DNA from: Propionispira arboris
GTDB lineage: Bacteria > Bacillota > Negativicutes > Selenomonadales > Selenomonadaceae
Assembly (NCBI RefSeq): GCF_900109225.1
Contig: NZ_FNZK01000005.1
Span: 62,001 to 126,000, forward strand
Direction of reading: 5' to 3'
Length of the DNA: 64,000 nt
The notes under the pieces: generated by a model
Told to the model about the DNA's origin: nothing
Databases searched by the model: none
The model's input: only the letters and a program-made list of their open reading frames with translations
Part shown: piece by piece, positions 23,706 to 49,095 of the stretch
How the letters are laid out: each line of letters opens with the position of its first letter
How positions within the stretch are numbered: the stretch's first letter is position 1
Translations under genes and position numbers: made by a program

Positions 23706-23782
23706 GGCCCGGTAGTTTAGTTGGTTAGAATGCCGCCCTGTCACGGCGGAGGTCAGGGGTTCGAGTCCCCTTCGGGTCGCCA
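23706..23782 (+). tRNA. tRNA-Asp (GTC)
   Basis: A 77-nt cloverleaf with acceptor GGCCCGG/TCGGGTC, anticodon loop CTGTCAC and encoded CCA. Confidence 0.96.
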
Positions 23783-23783
23783 T

Positions 23784-23858
23784 GCGGAAATAGCTCAGCG
23801 GTAGAGCATCGCCTTGCCAAGGCGGGGGTCGCGAGTCCGAATCTCGTTTTCCGCTCCA
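23784..23858 (+). tRNA. tRNA-Gly (GCC), copy 1
   Basis: 75 nt, acceptor GCGGAAA/TTTCCGC, anticodon loop TTGCCAA, encoded CCA. The T loop reads TCCGAAT, so position 55 is C instead of the near-universal U. Confidence 0.95.
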
Positions 23859-23871
23859 ATTTAACTTTTAT

Positions 23872-23945
23872 GGCGACATAGCCAAGCGGTAAGGCAGAGG
23901 TCTGCAAAACCTTTATCCCCAGTTCGATTCTGGGTGTCGCCTCCA
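23872..23945 (+). tRNA. tRNA-Cys (GCA), copy 1
   Basis: 74 nt, acceptor GGCGACA/TGTCGCC, anticodon loop CTGCAAA, normal TTCGATT T loop, encoded CCA. Confidence 0.95.
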
Positions 23946-23959
23946 TAAAAGAATATATT

Positions 23960-24048
23960 GCCGGGGTGGCGGAACTGGCAGACGCACGGGACTTAAAATC
24001 CCGCGGTTGGTAACAACCGTACCGGTTCAATTCCGGTCCTCGGCACCA
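23960..24048 (+). tRNA. tRNA-Leu (TAA), copy 1
   Basis: 89-nt class II tRNA, acceptor GCCGGGG/CCTCGGC, anticodon loop CTTAAAA, long variable arm GGTTGGTAACAACC, encoded CCA. Confidence 0.95.
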
Positions 24049-24098
24049 TAATATAGTGCAAGTTGTCTTTTTTTGATTAGTTGAATATTGATATGCAT

Positions 24099-24173
24099 GC
24101 GGAAATAGCTCAGCGGTAGAGCATCGCCTTGCCAAGGCGGGGGTCGCGAGTCCGAATCTCGTTTTCCGCTCCA
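24099..24173 (+). tRNA. tRNA-Gly (GCC), copy 2
   Basis: Identical to copy 1, including the TCCGAAT T loop. It starts the second copy of the Gly-Cys-Leu block. Confidence 0.95.
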
Positions 24174-24186
24174 ATTTAATTTTTAT

Positions 24187-24260
24187 GGCGACATAGCCAA
24201 GCGGTAAGGCAGAGGTCTGCAAAACCTTTATCCCCAGTTCGATTCTGGGTGTCGCCTCCA
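24187..24260 (+). tRNA. tRNA-Cys (GCA), copy 2
   Basis: Identical to copy 1. The preceding spacer differs by a single C/T change. Confidence 0.95.
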
Positions 24261-24272
24261 TAAAAAATATAT

Positions 24273-24361
24273 GCCGGGGTGGCGGAACTGGCAGACGCAC
24301 GGGACTTAAAATCCCGCGGTTGGTAACAACCGTACCGGTTCAATTCCGGTCCTCGGCACCA
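24273..24361 (+). tRNA. tRNA-Leu (TAA), copy 2
   Basis: Identical to copy 1; last tRNA of the cluster. Confidence 0.95.
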
Positions 24362-27752: not shown

Positions 27753-27838
27753 TGGCAATGGAGCCATATGATAGGGCATATTCTATTATGCGTGTGCATT
27801 TGTACTTGTATAGTAAAGTGCAGTCATATGGTTTTTTT
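27753..27838 (+). promoter_or_regulatory. ANTAR-type antitermination leader before glutamine synthetase
   Basis: A hairpin TGGC-AATGGA-GCCA (27753-27766) has a six-nt loop with A at 1 and G at 4, the known requirement for ANTAR regulators. Its 3' arm is also the 5' arm of a terminator: CCATATGA (27764-27771) pairs with TCATATGG (27824-27831), followed by seven T. The two structures are mutually exclusive. The second (upstream) hairpin usual in these leaders is not clear. Confidence 0.7.
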
Positions 27839-27907: not shown

Positions 27908-29794
27908 ATGAGTGATTTATTGTATGTGATTCCTGCAGATTCCAAGAAAGAAGACGTACTTGAGCTGCTTAAAACGCATCCGGAAATTAAATTTGTTTCA
28001 TTAGTGGGTATTGATCTTGCCGGAAATGATACAGATGAAAAAATTCCAATGAGTTTATTCTTAAAAGATATCGATGATTTTTATGCGGGTACGGCTGTTC
28101 AAACAGATGGATCGTCTGTTGTATTAACAGGTATTGCCGTATTGAACAATGCAAAAGTAGATATGCCAATTGACCCAAGTGTGAATTGGTTTGTTGATTA
28201 TAACGTTGAACATTATGATGAAGAATTAGAAAAACCAGTTGGTACTTTGCGTATTCCAGCGTTTTTGATTCATGAAGGCAAACGTGTGGATTCACGTGCT
28301 GTTCTTGCTGAAACATTAGTTCATGTTAAAAAAGAACTTTTAGAATTATTCAAAAAACATCCAAAAGTTTCTGGTCTTGAACATATTGATGGTGCTGATA
28401 TAGCAGATATCTTATTTACATCAGCTACCGAACTTGAATTTTGGGTAAAAACTCCACTTGTTGAAGCTGAAATTGCTGAAATGTCTGCTTCTCAGGTTAT
28501 GCAGGAACAATACTGGCAGCGTACTCGTGGGGCTGTTCGTACTGCACTTGAACAATGCGTATTGACAATGGATCAATATGGATTGGGTACAGAAATGGGT
28601 CATAAAGAAGTTGGCGGCATCAAAGCTCATATTGATGAAGCTGGTAATTTGACACATGTTTGTGAACAAATTGAAATTGACTGGAGATTTGCGGATGCTT
28701 TGCAAGCAGCAGATAATGAACTCTTAGTTCGTATTCTGGTTAAAGAAATATTTAGAGAAAACGGTTTAGAAGTGAATTTCAAAGCCAAACCAATGATTGG
28801 TCTTGCCGGTAATGGTGAACATACTCATATTGGTATGGCAGCAAAATTGAAATCGGGTAAAATTGTAAACTTGTTCTCTCCAACTAAAATGGATAAAGAT
28901 TTCATGAGTGCTGTTGGTTATGGTGCAATCATGGGTTTACTTAAAAATTATGAAGTAGTTAATCCGTTTGTTTCGGCAACGAATGACTCTTTAAATCGTT
29001 TAAAACCTGGGTTTGAAGCTCCTGTATGTATTGTTACATCTCTTGGTCATACACCAGCAATTCCATCGCGTAACCGCACAATCTTAGCAGGTCTTGTACG
29101 TGATTTGAATAATCCGTATGCAACAAGATTTGAACTTAGAGCTTGTAATCCTTATACAAATACGTATATTGTTTTAGCTGCTATTTATACCGTTATTCTT
29201 GATGGTGTTAGAGCTGCTATTACAAAAACTACCGATGAACTTTTAACCGAACTTTCCAAAAATGCTGGTGAAGAAGGCTTCTACCTTGAAAAAGACAGAG
29301 CATATCGTAGTGAAGAAGATGTTTTCGAAGATTATACAGAAGAAGAACGTAATCGTTTGTTTGGTGCGCCTCCTGCAACTGTATGGGAAAATATCAATAG
29401 TATTGAAAATCATCCAGATAAACGTGCTGTTCTTACGTCGGGCGGAGCTTTATCGGATACGATTATCAATGCGTTTTCAGCAGGGGCTTTGCTTCGTTGG
29501 AAAACAGAAATTATCAGCCGTATCATCCCTGAAAATCTTGACATTGTAAGAGGCAGTAAAGAAATTCACTCTACTTATGTAACGGATCAGGATTCTTATA
29601 CTTGGAATAAAATTAATAATATTCGCTGTTACTTAGCAAAAGACAGTATTGATGAAAAATCCTTGTTTACTTTACTGATTAATTCATTAAATGAAGGCGA
29701 TTATGCCACAGCTTCTGGACTCCAAGTTGAAATGTATGATAAAGTACAAGAGCTAAAAGCTTTGTATGTTGCTTATAAGAAAAATATGATTTAA
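27908..29794 (+). CDS. glnA: glutamine synthetase, large (about 630-residue) clostridial type
   Basis: ATP-dependent synthesis of glutamine from glutamate and ammonia. The catalytic beta-grasp/GS domain shows ATELEFWV (metal Glu residues), KAKPMIGLAGNGEHTHIGM (ATP and metal site, about residues 295-311) and NPYATRFELRACNPYTNTY. At 628 residues it is much longer than GSI (about 450), because of an extra C-terminal helical region; similar long enzymes are known from clostridia. ATG 27908 follows AAAGGTGG. The leader carries an ANTAR-type antiterminator, which fits reports of ANTAR proteins next to clostridial glnA. Confidence 0.9.
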   Translation: MSDLLYVIPADSKKEDVLELLKTHPEIKFVSLVGIDLAGNDTDEKIPMSLFLKDIDDFYAGTAVQTDGSSVVLTGIAVLNNAKVDMPIDPSVNWFVDYNVEHYDEELEKPVGTLRIPAFLIHEGKRVDSRAVLAETLVHVKKELLELFKKHPKVSGLEHIDGADIADILFTSATELEFWVKTPLVEAEIAEMSASQVMQEQYWQRTRGAVRTALEQCVLTMDQYGLGTEMGHKEVGGIKAHIDEAGNLTHVCEQIEIDWRFADALQAADNELLVRILVKEIFRENGLEVNFKAKPMIGLAGNGEHTHIGMAAKLKSGKIVNLFSPTKMDKDFMSAVGYGAIMGLLKNYEVVNPFVSATNDSLNRLKPGFEAPVCIVTSLGHTPAIPSRNRTILAGLVRDLNNPYATRFELRACNPYTNTYIVLAAIYTVILDGVRAAITKTTDELLTELSKNAGEEGFYLEKDRAYRSEEDVFEDYTEEERNRLFGAPPATVWENINSIENHPDKRAVLTSGGALSDTIINAFSAGALLRWKTEIISRIIPENLDIVRGSKEIHSTYVTDQDSYTWNKINNIRCYLAKDSIDEKSLFTLLINSLNEGDYATASGLQVEMYDKVQELKALYVAYKKNMI

Positions 29795-41447: not shown

Positions 41448-41629
41448 AGTGATAACCTCCATTGTAATGTAATGCTTGTCTCTTTGAAAAGGATATTGAT
41501 ATATAGTATACAACTTTACACAATATAAAACAATATGGATATGACAAAAAATGGATTATAAAAAAGACTAGTTTCTTATAGACAGTTTTTCATCAATATA
41601 GTACACTAAAGTTAACTTTATAGTTTGTT

Positions 41630-41683
41630 AGGCAATGAAGCCCTATAATTTACAGAAAATCACTGTGAATGATAGGGCTTTTT
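41630..41683 (+). promoter_or_regulatory. ANTAR-type antitermination leader before eutW
   Basis: Hairpin GGC-AATGAA-GCC (41631-41642) has the A1/G4 hexaloop. The 3' arm is also the start of a 17-position terminator stem (41639-41655 with 41663-41679 region; outer AGCCCTAT/ATAGGGCT, inner TTTACAG/CTGTGAA), followed by T. A regulator bound to the hairpin would block the terminator. Confidence 0.82.
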
Positions 41684-41704
41684 CTATGTGTTGGAGATGA
41701 TGAA

Positions 41705-43162
41705 ATGGAAGATCAGGCAAGGATACGCAAGCTGTGTTTAGAATATACGGCACTGCTAGACACGGATATTTGCCAATTAGAAGCCTTGGGAAAGCAATTA
41801 TTAATGATCGCAACGCTGAATGATACGGATATTTTTATTGATGCACCGTTAGAAGAAGGCAGTGCTAGTATTGTTTTAGCCTGGGCTCATGCCGATACAC
41901 TGTCGTCCTTATATAAAAAAAGTGTTGTTGGTGAAATTGCCTACGCAGAATGTGAACCAGCGGTTTATCGAGCAGCTTTATTCGGGGAAAAAAGTACAAA
42001 TGTGCGTGGCCTGAGTCAGGAGGGGGTACCCATTGCCCAGACCGTGGTTCCAATTCAAAATGCCAAAGGGGAAATTATTGGTGCTTTAATTATGGAAAAA
42101 GATATTTCGGCAAAAATAGAGCAGGAAAAACAGGTCGAGTTTTTGACACAGACAGCAGATCATTTAAGTCAGACATTGATGTCGTTAGCGAAAACTGGCT
42201 GTGGATGGGATGACTGGAATGTTGGCGGTATTTTTGTTTTAAATCCTGAGGGGAATATAACGTATGCAAATCGACAGGGAAGTGTGATTGCAAGAAATTT
42301 GTGGCAAGGCGATGTTATGCAGAAAAATTTACAGAAATTTTTAGGCTACCAGTCGTTGACTTCCCTGGTGGAAGATTTGTGGGACACAAAAAATATGCAA
42401 TATGGATCAGCAAGTTATATTTTTCGTGCCTATTCACTTATTTCTCAGGGAATTCTAAGTGGCTGTGTTGTGTCCGTTCAGGATGTAACGGAACTTCGTG
42501 AAAAAGAACGTCGTATTGATATGCAGTCTGTCATTATTGAAGAAATTAATCATCGAGTCAAAAACACTCTGCAAAATGTAATTTCTTTGTTGTATATGCA
42601 AATGCGGCGAACCGGAGAGGAAAAAGTTAAGGAAGAATTTTTGGCATGTATTAATCGTATTTTATCGATTGCTAAAGTTTATGAAGTTTTTACGTATCAG
42701 GCAAAAGATGTAGTCAATTTAAAAGAACTAGCCGGATATATTATGGAAAAAATCATCGAGAGTGGTACTTTGCCAGAACAACAAGTAAAAACGAACGTGC
42801 TGGGGTCGACCGTGTTTCTTCAGGCGAAGCAGGCTGTTCCCATTGCCTTGGTCCTAAATGAACTCTTATCTAATGCTGTAAAACATGGCTTGAAAAATTG
42901 TGTACATAGTGGTGAAGTAAATATTACAATCAGCGAAGATTCAGGTATGGTTATGATTCGTATTGAAAACAATGGGGACGAAATAAAAGAAAAAGAGACA
43001 AAGAAAGAACGGAAAAAATTAGGACTTTATTTGGTGAAGCTTTTGATATGTGAACAAATGGGCGGAAAATTTGAACTGATGCAGGAAAAAGGAATTGTTG
43101 TGGCAAACATTTTCTTCCCTTTACGTGAACTAACAACGGATAAGGAGGCAAAAGCGGTATGA
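41705..43162 (+). CDS. eutW: ethanolamine-type sensor histidine kinase (EutW-like)
   Basis: This 485-residue cytosolic kinase has an N-terminal sensor domain of about 145 residues and a PAS-like domain (GGIFVLNPEGNITYANRQG). A HisKA_2 dimer/phosphoacceptor segment (EEINHRVKNTLQNVISL, His about 283) and an HATPase domain (LVLNELLSNAVKHG) follow. This is the EutW layout partnered with ANTAR regulators. ATG 41705 is eight nt after GGAG; the frame is open upstream but through the terminator. The stop overlaps eutV by 4 nt. Confidence 0.87.
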   Translation: MEDQARIRKLCLEYTALLDTDICQLEALGKQLLMIATLNDTDIFIDAPLEEGSASIVLAWAHADTLSSLYKKSVVGEIAYAECEPAVYRAALFGEKSTNVRGLSQEGVPIAQTVVPIQNAKGEIIGALIMEKDISAKIEQEKQVEFLTQTADHLSQTLMSLAKTGCGWDDWNVGGIFVLNPEGNITYANRQGSVIARNLWQGDVMQKNLQKFLGYQSLTSLVEDLWDTKNMQYGSASYIFRAYSLISQGILSGCVVSVQDVTELREKERRIDMQSVIIEEINHRVKNTLQNVISLLYMQMRRTGEEKVKEEFLACINRILSIAKVYEVFTYQAKDVVNLKELAGYIMEKIIESGTLPEQQVKTNVLGSTVFLQAKQAVPIALVLNELLSNAVKHGLKNCVHSGEVNITISEDSGMVMIRIENNGDEIKEKETKKERKKLGLYLVKLLICEQMGGKFELMQEKGIVVANIFFPLRELTTDKEAKAV

Positions 43163-43740
43163 AGACCTTGTCGATTTTATTGGCCGAAGATGAAATTTTG
43201 ATTCGCGCGGATATGAAAGAGGCTTTAGAAGAAGCCGGACATATTGTTTGTGCTGAATGTGATAATGGGAAAAAAGCGATTGAACAGGCTAAACAAATGC
43301 AGCCAGAATTAGCCATTTTAGATATTATGATGCCCGAATTAAATGGTTTAGAGACAGCTCAAATGATGCATGAACTAAACATTCCCGTTATTATGGTGAC
43401 AGCAAATAGCCAGGCAAAACTCATTCAACGAGCCGAAAAAGTTCATGTTTATGGTTATATTATCAAACCTGTTTCAGAACAAAATCTTTTAGCCGCGGTG
43501 CAGATTGCCTATGCGCGTTGGGCTGAGATGGATTGTACGAGCAATGAATTGCAAAAAATGCAGGCAGCTTTATGTGCGCAAAAAACGATTAGTAAGGCAC
43601 GATCTTTGATTCAAGATCGTCTGGGGATTTCAGCGCAAGAGGCGCATCGCCGCCTTTCACAGGAAGCCATGAAACGGCAGATGACATTGGCTGCTCTTGC
43701 GGAAAAAATTTTACAGCAAATGACTTGCAAAAACAAATAG
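43159..43740 (+). CDS. eutV: ANTAR-domain response regulator (EutV-like)
   Basis: A 193-residue protein with a receiver domain (AEDE acidic pair, phospho-Asp55 in LAILDIMMPE, Lys in YIIKPV) and a C-terminal ANTAR domain (residues about 135-190, ISKARSLIQDRLGISAQEA...AMKRQMTLAALAEKIL). ANTAR proteins bind hexaloop RNA hairpins and prevent termination. Three such hairpins occur in this window. ATG 43159 overlaps the kinase stop and follows AAGGAGG. Confidence 0.92.
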   Translation: MKTLSILLAEDEILIRADMKEALEEAGHIVCAECDNGKKAIEQAKQMQPELAILDIMMPELNGLETAQMMHELNIPVIMVTANSQAKLIQRAEKVHVYGYIIKPVSEQNLLAAVQIAYARWAEMDCTSNELQKMQAALCAQKTISKARSLIQDRLGISAQEAHRRLSQEAMKRQMTLAALAEKILQQMTCKNK

Positions 43741-43795
43741 GATGATGTAAGATAAGAATGAAATCAGAAATATTTGGTTTTACAATGGAATAATA

Positions 43796-43852
43796 GGCAA
43801 TAACGCCCAATAGATCGTCAGGTTTTCTGACTTTTATTTGGGCGTTTTTTTT
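43796..43852 (+). terminator. terminator after eutV, overlapped by a non-consensus hexaloop hairpin
   Basis: AACGCCCAAT pairs with ATTTGGGCGTT, then a T run; an inner TCAG/CTGA hairpin lies in the loop. The 5' arm overlaps GGC-AATAAC-GCC (43796-43807), which has A1 but A instead of G at loop position 4. Confidence 0.75.
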
Positions 43853-43909
43853 ATTCTATTGGACGTTGTGACCGGAAAAATAAAGTCATGGATAATCTAA
43901 AAAAATTAA

Positions 43910-43965
43910 AGGCAATGAAGCCTGACAGTAACTGTAGTTTAGTATGCAGTCTGTCAGGCTTTTTT
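43910..43965 (+). promoter_or_regulatory. ANTAR-type antitermination leader before the ethanolamine permease
   Basis: Hairpin AGGC-AATGAA-GCCT (43910-43923) has the A1/G4 hexaloop. Its 3' arm starts a perfect 11-bp terminator stem, AAGCCTGACAG (43918-43928) with CTGTCAGGCTT (43951-43961), then T. The permease start codon lies 25 nt downstream. Confidence 0.85.
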
Positions 43966-43989: not shown

Positions 43990-45360
43990 ATGGAAGTTAG
44001 TAAAAGTGTAGCTTTAGAGGCAACCCCAGAAGAAGCAAGTCTATCGAGAGTTTTGAAACCAATCCATTTATGGGCATTGACCGTTGGTCTCGTTATTTCT
44101 GGTAATTATTTTGGCTGGAGTTATGGTTTTGCCGCAGGTGGAGTTATGGGATTAGCGCTGGCACTGGTTCCCGTTACAATTTTTTATGTGACCTTTATTT
44201 TATCTTATTCGGAACTTGCTACAGCGATTCCACATGCCGGTGGTCCGTCTGCCTATGCACGGCGAGCTTTGGGGAAATTTGGTGGTTATATGAATGGCAT
44301 CAGCTGTCTGATTGAATTTGTATTTGCACCACCAGCAATCGCCCTTGCTGTAGGTGGTTATGTTCATGCAATGGTACCGGGCATCGATGTTATGGCAGCA
44401 ACCGTTGCAGCATTTTTGTTTTTTATCTTTTTAAATTATCTAGGTATGAAAGTTTCTGCGACATTTGAACTAACCGTAACGATTATTGCTTTAGTCGGAC
44501 TTGTTATATATTGGATATTGGCGCTGCCTCATTTTGAACTTTCTCGGGTTATGGTGGAACCATATTTTCCAAATGGATTTCAAGGCGTTATGGCAGCGGT
44601 ACCTTTTGCCATATGGTTTTATTTAGCAATTGAAGGTGGAGCCATGAATGCTGAAGAAATGGTAAATCCGCAAAAAGACATTTCAAAAGGTTTTTTAACG
44701 GGGATGGGAAGCCTCATGGTTATGGCTTTTTTAACTTTATTCCTTACTGCTGGAATTGCCGATACGAACTTGATTGATTCTGTTGATTTCCCTTTGCCAC
44801 TTGCATTGAGTGCGGTTTTTGGTGATGGATCTTTTCCTGTTTTACTTATGAGTGGTGTTGGCTTATTTGGTTTAGTAGCTTCACTGCATGGCATTATTTT
44901 AGGGTACTCACGTCAAACTTATGCAATGGCACGCACGGGTTATTTACCAAAATTTTTGGCTAAGTTAGATAAAAAACATCATACCCCAGTGTGGTCCTTG
45001 ATTTTACCAGGTTTAATTTGTTTAGGAACGGCTTTGACAGGACTTACGGATGTTGTTATTACGATTTCAGCTTTTGGTTCGGTTGTTATGTACATTATCA
45101 GTTTAACGAGTTTGTTCGTTCTGCGTAAAAAAGAACCAGAATTAAAACGGCCATTTCGGGTATATTATCCGATTGTACCAATCATTAGTATACTAATGGC
45201 TGTCTTTTGCTTAGTTAGTTTATTGATTGCATCTAGTGATGTATTGCCTTATGTACTCGGCATTTATGTAGTGGCTATTCTTTATTATTTTATTTGGGGG
45301 AATAAAAATATTCGACCATTTGAAGAAGAATTTGGCGTTTTAGATGAGCTTGATCAATAA
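43990..45360 (+). CDS. eat: ethanolamine permease (APC superfamily)
   Basis: A 456-residue transporter with about 12 membrane spans. It carries the ethanolamine-permease signature ISGNYFGWSYGFAAGGVMGL and an AIPHAGGPSAYARRALG block. It imports ethanolamine in place of EutH. ATG 43990 follows AGGGAGGA; the upstream open frame runs through the ANTAR leader and is not coding. The context with EutW/V and eutABC fits. Confidence 0.9.
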   Translation: MEVSKSVALEATPEEASLSRVLKPIHLWALTVGLVISGNYFGWSYGFAAGGVMGLALALVPVTIFYVTFILSYSELATAIPHAGGPSAYARRALGKFGGYMNGISCLIEFVFAPPAIALAVGGYVHAMVPGIDVMAATVAAFLFFIFLNYLGMKVSATFELTVTIIALVGLVIYWILALPHFELSRVMVEPYFPNGFQGVMAAVPFAIWFYLAIEGGAMNAEEMVNPQKDISKGFLTGMGSLMVMAFLTLFLTAGIADTNLIDSVDFPLPLALSAVFGDGSFPVLLMSGVGLFGLVASLHGIILGYSRQTYAMARTGYLPKFLAKLDKKHHTPVWSLILPGLICLGTALTGLTDVVITISAFGSVVMYIISLTSLFVLRKKEPELKRPFRVYYPIVPIISILMAVFCLVSLLIASSDVLPYVLGIYVVAILYYFIWGNKNIRPFEEEFGVLDELDQ

Positions 45361-45457: not shown

Positions 45458-46846
45458 ATGAGACAGGAAATTTTGAGCGTAGGAATTGATTTGGGAACGA
45501 CAACATCGCAAGTGATTTTCAGCCGAATTGCAATTGAAAGCTTGGCTTTGACAGCGATTCCCGAAGTTAAAATCACCGATAAAACGATTATCTATCGAAG
45601 TGAAATTTATTTTACACCTATGAAAAATATCGGGGTAATTGATGTCGAGCAGTTGAAGCAAATCATTCTTGCCGAATATGAAATGGCGGGAATACGTAAA
45701 GAAGATATTGTTACAGGGGCAATTATTATTACGGGTGAAACAGCTCGTAAAGAGAATGCGGCGGATGTACTTAATGTTCTGTCTGATTTCGCTGGAGATT
45801 TTGTCGTAGCAACAGCCGGACCGGATTTAGAGTCAGTTTTAGCTGGCTATGGAGCTGGCGCAGCTGGGTTGTCAGAGCAGTTGCCGGAAAAAATAATTAA
45901 TTTTGATATCGGTGGTGGAACAACAAATGCTGTGGTATTTGTTGGCGGACAAGTTCTCGATGCTTTTGCGTTAGATATTGGTGGTCGACTGATTTGTTTG
46001 GACGAACAACATCGGATCACGTATATATCAGAAAAAATTAAAGCCTTGATTCAAACATTAGGTTTAGTACTGGCAATTGGCGCACGGGCAGATTTATTGG
46101 AATTGGTCAAATTGACAGATGCTTTCGCTAGGATGTTTTTGCAAATCTCTTTAGGGGAAATATTGGATGAGGAAACAAAAGACCTTTTTATTGAACATTT
46201 ACATCAAGGCTGGCAACTGCAAAATCTGATGTTTTCCGGTGGTGTAGCAGAATTTATTTATAATGAACATGAAATAAAAACGTTAGAAGACGTCAATCTC
46301 TTTGGTGATATTGGACCGTTACTGGGGTGGTCCATTCGGAAACATTTGAAAAATATGCCGCTTACGCTGCACGTGGCGAAAGAAAAAATACGTGCTACGG
46401 TTATAGGGGCAGGAAGTTATTCCTTACATATCAGTGGAAGTACGGTACTATTTGATGATACGATCGTGCCGCTTAAAAATTTACCTGTATTAAAAATTAA
46501 AAATATCAAGTCAATGCAAGAAGAAATTATAAATAAGCGCTGCTTGTTTCCGGGGCAAATGATTGCGATTGCTTTTGCTGGAGCGGCGGCGCCCACATAT
46601 TTTCAAATTAAGGAAATGGCGACAGCTATTATTGCTGGCTTACAAGGGGCTGAACAACCATTTATTGTAGTCGTTGAACATGACTTTGCGAAAGCTTTGG
46701 GGCAAACCCTGCAACGTTTAGCTGGGAATAAAAGCGTGATTTGTTTAGATTGCATTAAGACCGAAATGGGTGATTACATTGATATTGGTAAGTCTGTGGC
46801 CAATGTGGTGCCCGTGGTAGTTAAAACGTTGTTGTTTAAAAATTGA
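45458..46846 (+). CDS. eutA: ethanolamine ammonia-lyase reactivase EutA
   Basis: A 462-residue actin-fold ATPase that exchanges inactivated cobalamin on EutBC. The N-terminal phosphate loop VGIDLGTTTSQVIFSR and a second motif IINFDIGGGTTNAVVF are characteristic. It starts at ATG 45458 after a CGAGG site. It stands directly before eutB, as usual. Confidence 0.93.
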   Translation: MRQEILSVGIDLGTTTSQVIFSRIAIESLALTAIPEVKITDKTIIYRSEIYFTPMKNIGVIDVEQLKQIILAEYEMAGIRKEDIVTGAIIITGETARKENAADVLNVLSDFAGDFVVATAGPDLESVLAGYGAGAAGLSEQLPEKIINFDIGGGTTNAVVFVGGQVLDAFALDIGGRLICLDEQHRITYISEKIKALIQTLGLVLAIGARADLLELVKLTDAFARMFLQISLGEILDEETKDLFIEHLHQGWQLQNLMFSGGVAEFIYNEHEIKTLEDVNLFGDIGPLLGWSIRKHLKNMPLTLHVAKEKIRATVIGAGSYSLHISGSTVLFDDTIVPLKNLPVLKIKNIKSMQEEIINKRCLFPGQMIAIAFAGAAAPTYFQIKEMATAIIAGLQGAEQPFIVVVEHDFAKALGQTLQRLAGNKSVICLDCIKTEMGDYIDIGKSVANVVPVVVKTLLFKN

Positions 46847-46903: not shown

Positions 46904-48265
46904 ATGAAGTTGAAAACAAGCTTATTTGGAAACGTGTATTCGTTTCGCGATGTGAAAGATGTGCTGGCTAAAGCAAATGAAGAAAAATCTGGTGATGTGC
47001 TGGCAGGTATTGCGGCACAAAATACAGTTGAGCGCGTTGCGGCAAAAGTGGTTTTGGCGGATATGACGTTGGAGAATCTGAGGAAAAATCCTGTTGTTCC
47101 CTATGAAATAGATGATGTTACCCGAGCAGATCAGGACGCACTGGATATAGAGGTCTTTCAAAAAATAAAGTCATTAACCGTAGGGGAGTTTCGTGAGTTT
47201 TTACTCAGTGCTGACGAAGCCGATATAGCGGCAATACGTCCCGGACTTACGGCAGAAATGATCGCAGGCGTTGCAAAACTTATGAGCAATATGGATCTTG
47301 TTTGTGCATCTGCTAAAATGCATGTCACAGCAACCTGTAATACAACCATTGGGCGAGCGGGAACTTTATCGGCTCGTTTACAGCCAAATCATGCTACGGA
47401 TAATATATCTGGCATCATGGCTTCCCTAATGGAAGGTCTAAGTTATGGTGTGGGCGATGCAGTCATTGGGTTAAATCCAGCGGTTGACTCTATTGGCAGC
47501 GTAGCTGCCGTACTAACCGAGTTTAAAAATTTCATGAATAAATGGAAAATCCCAACACAAAACTGCGTGTTGTCGCACGTCACGACGCAGATGAAAATTT
47601 TAGAAAAAAATGCAGCACCAATGGATCTGATGTTTCAAAGTTTGGCGGGTTCGGAAATTGCCAGCAGGGCTTTTGGCATCAATGTTAAACTCATGGATGA
47701 AGCTTATGCGATGATGAAAGAGCGGAAAAGTTCATTGGGACCTAATTTCATGTACTTTGAAACAGGTCAGGGGTCTGAACTTTCATCCGATGGACATCAT
47801 GGAGCCGATCAATTAGTTATGGAGGCACGCTGTTATGCGTTTGCAAAACGCTATAATCCTTTTCTTGTAAATACAGTAGTTGGGTTTATTGGTCCGGAAT
47901 ATCTTTATGATGGGCGTCAGATGATTCGGGCGGGACTTGAAGATCATTTTATGGGAAAACTTACTGGTCTGTCGATGGGGGTTGATGTATGTTATACAAA
48001 CCATATGAAGGCAGATCAGAACGACTTAGAGAATTTAGCAATGATGCTGACTTTGGCCGATTGCAATTATATTATGGGAATACCGGGAGGTGATGATGTT
48101 ATGCTCATGTATCAGACGACGAGTTATCATGATGCAGCAGCTTTGAGAAAAATCGGACACAAAAAAACGATTGCAGAATTTGATCAACGTATGGAAGAAT
48201 TGGGTATCTTTAAAAATGGTCAATTGACCGAAAAAGCTGGAGATCCATCTATATTCATGGTGTAA
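46904..48265 (+). CDS. eutB: ethanolamine ammonia-lyase large subunit
   Basis: A 453-residue TIM-barrel subunit carrying the substrate site. It splits ethanolamine to acetaldehyde and ammonia with adenosylcobalamin. EutB blocks such as ANEEKSGDVLAGIAA, GRAGTLSARLQPNHATDNI, FETGQGSELSSDGHHG and NYIMGIPGGDDVMLMYQT are present. ATG 46904 follows AAGGAGG. Confidence 0.97.
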   Translation: MKLKTSLFGNVYSFRDVKDVLAKANEEKSGDVLAGIAAQNTVERVAAKVVLADMTLENLRKNPVVPYEIDDVTRADQDALDIEVFQKIKSLTVGEFREFLLSADEADIAAIRPGLTAEMIAGVAKLMSNMDLVCASAKMHVTATCNTTIGRAGTLSARLQPNHATDNISGIMASLMEGLSYGVGDAVIGLNPAVDSIGSVAAVLTEFKNFMNKWKIPTQNCVLSHVTTQMKILEKNAAPMDLMFQSLAGSEIASRAFGINVKLMDEAYAMMKERKSSLGPNFMYFETGQGSELSSDGHHGADQLVMEARCYAFAKRYNPFLVNTVVGFIGPEYLYDGRQMIRAGLEDHFMGKLTGLSMGVDVCYTNHMKADQNDLENLAMMLTLADCNYIMGIPGGDDVMLMYQTTSYHDAAALRKIGHKKTIAEFDQRMEELGIFKNGQLTEKAGDPSIFMV

Positions 48266-48327: not shown

Positions 48328-49095
48328 ATGGAAGAATTCGTTCGAGATATCTCTTTACCGGAAATAAAAGAAAAAGTGTTGGTCGATAAGCCAGTTAGTA
48401 TGGAGAATTGTCAGCGACTTAAAAAGACAACCAATGCTCGTATTTGTGTGGGAAGAGCCGGCGAACGATTTAAAACGGAAACCTTATTGAAATTTCGTGC
48501 GGATCATGCAATTGCAATGGATACCGTATGGTCCTATGTTGATGAAAAAATTGTTGATCGGTTGGGTTTTTATAAAATACAAACAATGGTAAAAGACAAA
48601 GAAGAGTATATTCGTCGCCCTGACTTAGGTCGGATTTTTGCACCGGAAACGATGCAGGCAATCAAGAAAGATTGTATTCAGCAGCCCGATGTGCAAATTA
48701 TTGCTGCAGATGGGTTGAGTGCCTATGCAATTAATGCCAATTTAGAAGATATTTATTCGATTATGCTGGATGGTTTTGTGGAAAAAGGTTATTCGGTGGG
48801 GACGCCTATTTTTGTGAAATATAGTAGAGTGGCAACAATGGATAAGATCAGTGAGGCTTTGGGGGCTAAGGTAACCATTCAATTCATTGGTGAACGACCA
48901 GGTCTGGCTACCGGTGAAAGTATGAGTGTCTACATGGCTTATGAAGCCAGTTCACAAAAACCGGAATCGCAGCGTACGGTTGTATCCAATATCTATAAAG
49001 ATGGGATTCCGTCGGTGGAGGCTGGTGCGCAAATTGTTTATCTGACAGAAGTTTTAATGCGGGAAAAGAAAAGCGGTGTCGAGCTTAAAATATAA
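48328..49095 (+). CDS. eutC: ethanolamine ammonia-lyase small subunit
   Basis: A 255-residue cobalamin-binding subunit. It has RICVGRAGERFKTETLL, ADGLSAYAINAN and FIGERPGLATGESMSVYM blocks. Length is in the shorter range, without the N-terminal extension that targets some EutC proteins into microcompartments, which agrees with the absence of shell genes here. ATG 48328. Confidence 0.95.
   Translation: MEEFVRDISLPEIKEKVLVDKPVSMENCQRLKKTTNARICVGRAGERFKTETLLKFRADHAIAMDTVWSYVDEKIVDRLGFYKIQTMVKDKEEYIRRPDLGRIFAPETMQAIKKDCIQQPDVQIIAADGLSAYAINANLEDIYSIMLDGFVEKGYSVGTPIFVKYSRVATMDKISEALGAKVTIQFIGERPGLATGESMSVYMAYEASSQKPESQRTVVSNIYKDGIPSVEAGAQIVYLTEVLMREKKSGVELKI

Follow-up and report, generated by a model that had tools for sequence, protein, structure and literature searches.

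Terminator-linked single hexaloops, predicted to be ANTAR targets, in the ethanolamine gene leaders of Propionispira arboris and other Negativicutes

The ethanolamine locus of Propionispira arboris was analysed within a 64,000-nucleotide stretch of contig NZ_FNZK01000005.1 (positions 62,001 to 126,000 of the forward strand), which we refer to as the window and whose own numbering is used throughout. The genes run in the order PdtaS-like kinase, receiver-ANTAR regulator, eat, eutA, eutB and eutC, followed by cobT/cobS/cobC. These genes, the hairpins and terminators in their leaders, and a related module at a glutamine synthetase gene in the same window are as follows.

27753..27838, + strand: module TGGC-AATGGA-GCCA with terminator in the glutamine synthetase leader, of the same single-hexaloop design
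27908..29794, + strand: glutamine synthetase gene
41579..41607, + strand: promoter-like site before eutW, TAGACA-17-TACACT, a consensus match only, 23 nt upstream of the hexaloop stem
41631..41642, + strand: type A hexaloop hairpin GGC-AATGAA-GCC, eutW leader
41640..41683, + strand: eutW-leader intrinsic terminator with U-tract, whose 5' arm is the 3' arm of the hexaloop hairpin
41705..43162, + strand: eutW-like sensor kinase gene (domains GAF_PdtaS, HisKA_2, HATPase_c)
43159..43740, + strand: receiver-ANTAR regulator gene, 'EutV' by synteny (Pfam ANTAR 38.6 bits, cut-off 27.3)
43784..43792, + strand: linear AANGRAATA box of the type B module
43796..43807, + strand: type B hexaloop hairpin GGC-AATAAC-GCC, with A at loop position 4
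43805..43852, + strand: terminator with U-tract of the type B module
43910..43923, + strand: type A hexaloop hairpin AGGC-AATGAA-GCCT, permease leader
43920..43965, + strand: terminator with U-tract of the second permease-leader module
43990..45360, + strand: eat, ethanolamine permease (TIGR00908)
45458..46846, + strand: eutA, lyase reactivating factor
46904..48265, + strand: eutB, ethanolamine ammonia-lyase large subunit
48328..49095, + strand: eutC, ethanolamine ammonia-lyase small subunit

A search of the P. arboris genome for a shell-protein gene (PF00936) found none, and ethanolamine would therefore be used without a microcompartment. Input from a cobalamin riboswitch, which E. faecalis has, was also considered and dropped, since the window's eut region matched nothing in Rfam, even among hits with E up to 1, and 11 loci of relatives gave no match at gathering scores. 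No Rfam family covers the hairpin-terminator element itself. Elsewhere in the window, a tRNA cluster (23706-24358) appears to be a tandem duplication with three tRNAs per copy and equal scores.

The sequence GGCAATGAAGCC occurs exactly twice in the window, at 41631-41642 and 43911-43922, and the ANTAR gene lies between the two copies, as the sequence-only reading had noticed. At both sites the 3' arm of the hairpin begins a strong terminator, which makes the two pairings mutually exclusive, and the whole leaders fold at −22.7 and −26.3 kcal/mol (z −4.3 and −6.2). Such an overlap between a hexaloop and the 5' base of an intrinsic terminator is characteristic of canonical ANTAR targets. The hairpin sequence by itself is a weak signal (9 window matches with up to 2 mismatches, 6.25 expected), and it is the coupling to a terminator that is rare. 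With the loop left unfiltered, 16 terminator-opening hexaloops were found on the + strand of the window, four of which carry A at loop position 1 and G at position 4 (A1 and G4). Three are leader candidates, namely eutW (41634), eat (43914) and glutamine synthetase (27757), and the fourth (42175) lies inside eutW.

The eut genes possess a third module, with its own terminator, between eutV and the permease gene (43796-43843). Both GGCAATGAAGCC sites count as an A1-G4 hexaloop on at least 3 bp; the 43796 site, having A4, does not. The eutW and glutamine synthetase leaders each hold a lone hexaloop with no second one nearby, and the eat leader holds two, 115 nt apart. Therefore, of the 'two canonical target hairpins' first proposed, the terminator-linked hexaloops stand; their number is three, and 'canonical' does not apply to sites that lack the upstream P1 hairpin and of which one lacks G4. 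Promoter scores between the two eat modules were the same as those of shuffles, and an internal promoter there was rejected. Purine-rich, GGAGG-like stretches with no obvious start codon were seen between type B and type A modules in L131, L132, L136, L143, L152 and L154.

The hairpin-terminator design is kept across the class of the window, the Negativicutes. EutV homologues with more than 50% identity were found in 12 of the 99 relatives searched, the P. arboris genome apart. Of 380 class genomes, 35 have eat, and a search of 34 genomes for eutW found it in 20. With G001 set aside, 17 eat loci of EutV-bearing genomes were fetched and all 17 carry modules, part of them found with the loop left unfiltered. 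These precede eat irrespective of gene order, as in G069 and G086, where eat comes before eutW. Modules with G4 were found in 11 of 21 eutW leaders; a search for the eutW module in six genomes (G305, G306, G310, G316, G081 and G091) found none, which weakens the case for single-hexaloop control by the ANTAR protein. The P2 stem, which is the hexaloop stem, and the terminator base both co-vary (12 and 20 both-side cells, reached by 0/500 shuffles each), although the pairing of the terminator base is partly by construction, because the search itself required a terminator-opening hexaloop stem with three or more pairs, and the rows are phylogenetically related, so that p-values overstate. The sequence-only reading had proposed this covariation check and had named loss of the hexaloop from orthologous leaders as a result that would count against it; the hexaloops are conserved there, and it therefore passes its own test. 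Dropped from the sets were the eutW site of G077 (AATTGT), an overlapping GCAATG reading in G165, CTTTTT in G173, GGCAGG in G034, GCCAGT in G090 and GACAGA in G316. The EutV of G071, a genome of another family, is 93% identical to the window's protein, whereas that of G034, the only genome of the P. arboris family outside the genus to have EutV, is at 63%; the contrast suggests a possible transfer of the gene.

In E. faecalis, deletion of P1 from the eutP leader abolished induction, and P1 and P2 are separated by a linker of 5-12 nt (PMC3369931). Known ANTAR targets are defined as dual hairpins in the passages cited from that paper, and a survey of actinobacterial ANTAR RNAs again demands dual stem-loops (PMC8164766). 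P1 was searched for as an A1-G4 hexaloop on at least 3 pairs ending 2-16 nt upstream of P2. Canonical EutV loci of named genomes served as the positive control (18 of 80 loci, with all + strand A1-G4 matches taken), giving 35 modules of which 30 are non-redundant. The rule found P1 in 29 of the 35 canonical modules versus 2 of 118 modules from the class: 1/26 of type A, 1/21 of type B, 0/22 at eat in EutV-lacking genomes, 0/19 at glutamine synthetase and 0/30 at amtB. Because shuffled sequences give a rate of 4-5%, the class figure is that of chance, and P1 is absent from the class modules. None of the three eut sites of the window has one, in agreement with the initial remark that P1 was not obvious there.

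A P1 that exists but is too weak or altered for such a search, leaving control canonical and dual-hexaloop, is unlikely on these data. Such a P1 would fit the E. faecalis genetics (PMC3369931), which also weigh against single-hexaloop control, and the AANGGA stretch at type B sites resembles a P1 loop. A further candidate lies at 41609-41626, where AAGTTA-ACTTTA-TAGTTT could form a 6-bp hexaloop hairpin, with A1 and without G4, which overlaps the predicted eutW start; it pairs in G071 as well, with loop AATATA (both by eye), and it too counts against the single-hexaloop model. So do upstream A1 hexaloop hairpins of at least 4 bp, present at 7 of 26 type A sites where about 3.4 would be expected. 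However, P1 occurs at the chance rate in all five class sets under a search that recovers most canonical ones, and shuffled sequences have as much structure as the 32 nt upstream of P2 (class mean z 0.05, −0.09, −0.05 and −0.23, versus −1.69 for canonical modules). No excess of A1-G4 hexaloops was found downstream of modules, tandem amtB modules excepted.

The distance from promoter to P2 speaks against a hidden P1 as well. In amtB leaders with TTGACA-17-TATAAT-like promoters the −10 element lies 16-26 nt before P2 in 22 of 24, and at the first eat modules of genomes without EutV it lies 17-23 nt before P2 in 10/10, compared with 27-40 nt in the canonical leaders whose promoters scored 10.5 or more (n=10). 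The predicted promoters of amtB and glutamine synthetase leave scant space for P1. This argument rests on the amtB, glutamine synthetase and EutV-lacking eat leaders, since promoter scores at type A EutV sites equal those of shuffles (8.15 versus 8.04), with a fair promoter at eutW only (23 nt).

Two modules in series precede eat in most EutV-bearing genomes and at 10 of 12 eat loci of EutV-lacking genomes, and modules are also tandem in 6 of the 24 amtB leaders that have them (30 class loci examined). The hexaloops of two successive terminators might thus act together as one dual-hexaloop target. We regard this as slightly less probable even than a hidden P1: lone modules are common (eutW, glutamine synthetase and 18 of the 24 amtB leaders), and successive modules lie about 50-200 nt apart, far more than the 5-12 nt that separate P1 and P2 in E. 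faecalis.

The class modules at EutV loci fall into two types, which were sorted by hand with position and loop already known. Type A has G4 and comprises the eutW site and whichever site is closest to eat; type B, the farther eat site or the site behind eutV, has A4 in 19 of 21 and U4 in 2 of 21, and G4 in 26/26 versus 0/21 is therefore a description and not a test. A linear AANGRAATA box lies 1-6 nt before the stem in all 21 type B sites. None of the 26 type A, 35 canonical and 19 glutamine synthetase modules has it, and 5 of the 12 second eat modules from EutV-lacking genomes do. The combined box-hairpin pattern has one match in the P. arboris genome, at 43784. In 22 EutV-bearing genomes it has 71 matches versus 29 for the reversed control, and in 22 EutV-lacking class genomes 21 versus 20. 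These matches yielded three further eutV-eat or eutV-eutA sites outside the set, in G071, G164 and G069. The sole held-out site not chosen by its box, L043:7905 in G081 (loop AACAAC, omitted from the sets by oversight), has AATGAAATA one base before the stem.

The box may stand in for P1. It does not appear to be a stem-forming P1, as its flanks show no consistent pairing by eye. On inspection, pairing of the box with the U-tract or with sequence behind the terminator stands out in the window and in both G034 and G311; over 21 sites the mean z is −0.67, with values below −2 in 4/21, which is what A-rich against U-rich sequence gives by chance, and this idea was rejected. A looser RRATA box is enriched but weak at amtB and glutamine synthetase (15/22 and 9/16 non-redundant leaders), and we make no claim for it.

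The regulator itself also departs from the canonical protein. Its synteny and domains, a receiver and an ANTAR domain adjoining a HisKA_2 kinase and eut genes, support the initial label 'EutV-type', but identity to E. faecalis EutV is 28%. Class EutV forms a clade of its own (support 100/100), whose placement with nitrogen-type ANTAR proteins has support of 54/35 and is neither established nor rejected by it. When the class and canonical EutV proteins are forced together, the tree loses 13.1 log units (p-AU 0.037, with long branches), which weakly rejects their union in one clade, and the name 'EutV' is therefore used here by synteny.

The structure of EutV bound to RNA shows base G4 stacked on Tyr164, with Arg142, Lys149 and Glu160 holding it in place (PMC8934654). 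These four residues are kept in 13/13 canonical EutV proteins, and the pocket is also kept in 10/10 second, nitrogen-type ANTAR proteins of the class, with Y or F at 164. In E. faecalis numbering the window protein has R142Q, K149R, E160A and Y164H, and among 21 class EutV proteins H164 is found in 21, Q, H or L at 142 in 21, R149 in 18 and A or V at 160 in 16. The changed G4-contact residues are a further respect in which 'EutV-type' does not hold. An Ectobacillus ANTAR protein (L066:10572) has His at the Tyr164 position too, and directly behind its gene lies a hexaloop terminator with no obvious P1.

Among the leaders examined, A4 loops occur only in genomes with a His164 protein, and the 12 eat loci fetched from genomes whose only ANTAR is the nitrogen type have 22 modules, every one with G4. 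Loop position 4 could thus be a specificity code, the nitrogen ANTAR reading G4 only and the His164 'EutV' also A4, though we hold this as a speculative suggestion. On such a code, the His164 protein would read A4 through its rebuilt pocket together with the linear AANGRAAUA box in place of P1. If true, the first eat terminator would need ethanolamine and the second would be helped by nitrogen status, forming an RNA gate with two ANTAR inputs.

The modules extend beyond ethanolamine genes. In the P. arboris genome GGCAANGNNGCC has 28 matches, of which 5 open a terminator, and these five terminator-coupled sites precede eutW, eat, glutamine synthetase, amtB and a DUF3100 gene. The single-hexaloop terminator modules before amtB and before the DUF3100 membrane-protein gene lie at L285 (G000:C10:46036) and L292 (G000:C21:116286). 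Of 30 glutamine synthetase leaders fetched from the class, the window's included, 19 have the module. Exactly one ANTAR gene was found in 14/14 EutV-lacking, eat-bearing genomes tested and two in 8/8 EutV-bearing genomes tested; the glutamine synthetase module is probably a target of the second ANTAR. That regulator has its own kinase at L045:6782-8932, where the kinase leader carries CATTC-AATGGA-GAATG and a terminator. This leader was rejected as a general target, being found at just 2 of 30 loci, both in the host genus.

The location of all five P. arboris sites before nitrogen genes or the DUF3100 gene favours ANTAR control through single hexaloops. It also counts against plain attenuators or operon terminators, untouched by ANTAR, in which the hexaloop would be a by-product of GC-rich terminator bases. 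Such a by-product would account for two glutamine synthetase modules (L194 and L196) in genomes of one genus, G030 and G051, where no ANTAR gene was found, which weakens the single-hexaloop model. It would not account for loop position 1, which is A in nearly all leader matches with the loop unfiltered, or for G4 in 41/41 EutV-lacking eat and glutamine synthetase modules, sets filtered on A1 only. We consider this explanation very unlikely, the least probable of the alternatives.

The best reading, to which we assign a probability of about 0.72, is that the eutW and eat leaders are ANTAR-controlled attenuators with one hexaloop per site instead of a P1-P2 pair. In the absence of signal, the nascent leader would fold into the terminator. 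The sensor kinase would phosphorylate the receiver-ANTAR protein, the signal probably being ethanolamine by analogy with E. faecalis. The activated protein would then hold the GGC-N6-GCC hairpin and block the 5' arm of the terminator, allowing transcription to continue. The eutW site would render the regulator pair autoinducible, and eat-eutABC would lie behind two terminators in series, first type B (A4 and AANGRAAUA box) and then type A (G4). Autoregulation of eutWV and attenuation of eat-eutABC, both anticipated by the sequence-only reading, fit the retention of hexaloops in orthologous leaders.

This arrangement shares with the E. faecalis EutV-EutW system, which acts on the eutP, eutG, eutS and eutA leaders, a receiver-ANTAR protein and kinase at the ethanolamine locus, a hexaloop overlapping an intrinsic terminator, and, in type A loops, A1 and G4 (PMC3369931). 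Unlike that system as described in the cited passages, it has no P1, A4 type B loops with a linear box, a changed pocket, a separate clade and no PF00936 gene. With the nitrogen ANTAR regulons of the same paper (ammonium transporter, glutamine/glutamate synthase, nitrogenase) it shares amtB, glutamine synthetase and the hexaloop with terminator, and several attenuators per transcription unit are reported there too; there, however, the dual hairpin was both the search target and the definition of a match (PMC3369931).

The 2022 paper on structure 6WW6 describes a single hexaloop as the minimal ANTAR binding motif and calls for work on single sites, bioinformatic tests included (PMC8934654), and one hexaloop is likewise the predicted binding unit here. 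In the passages cited, it still takes P1 as needed in vivo for antitermination and expects single sites where polymerase sets no time limit, whereas the sites described here sit on terminators. In open-licence PMC papers we found no literature on single-hexaloop antitermination or on ANTAR switches of this class.

The E. faecalis genetics say that P1 is intrinsically needed, whereas the structure presents a lone hexaloop as what the protein binds. Natural test objects for the need of P1 are available in an entire class whose nitrogen genes carry terminator-coupled sites lacking P1. Furthermore, a clade without the G4-stacking tyrosine and with A4 targets would allow the recognition code to be tested by exchanging residues and bases. 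Regulons of this kind are expected to escape searches based on the dual-hairpin model.
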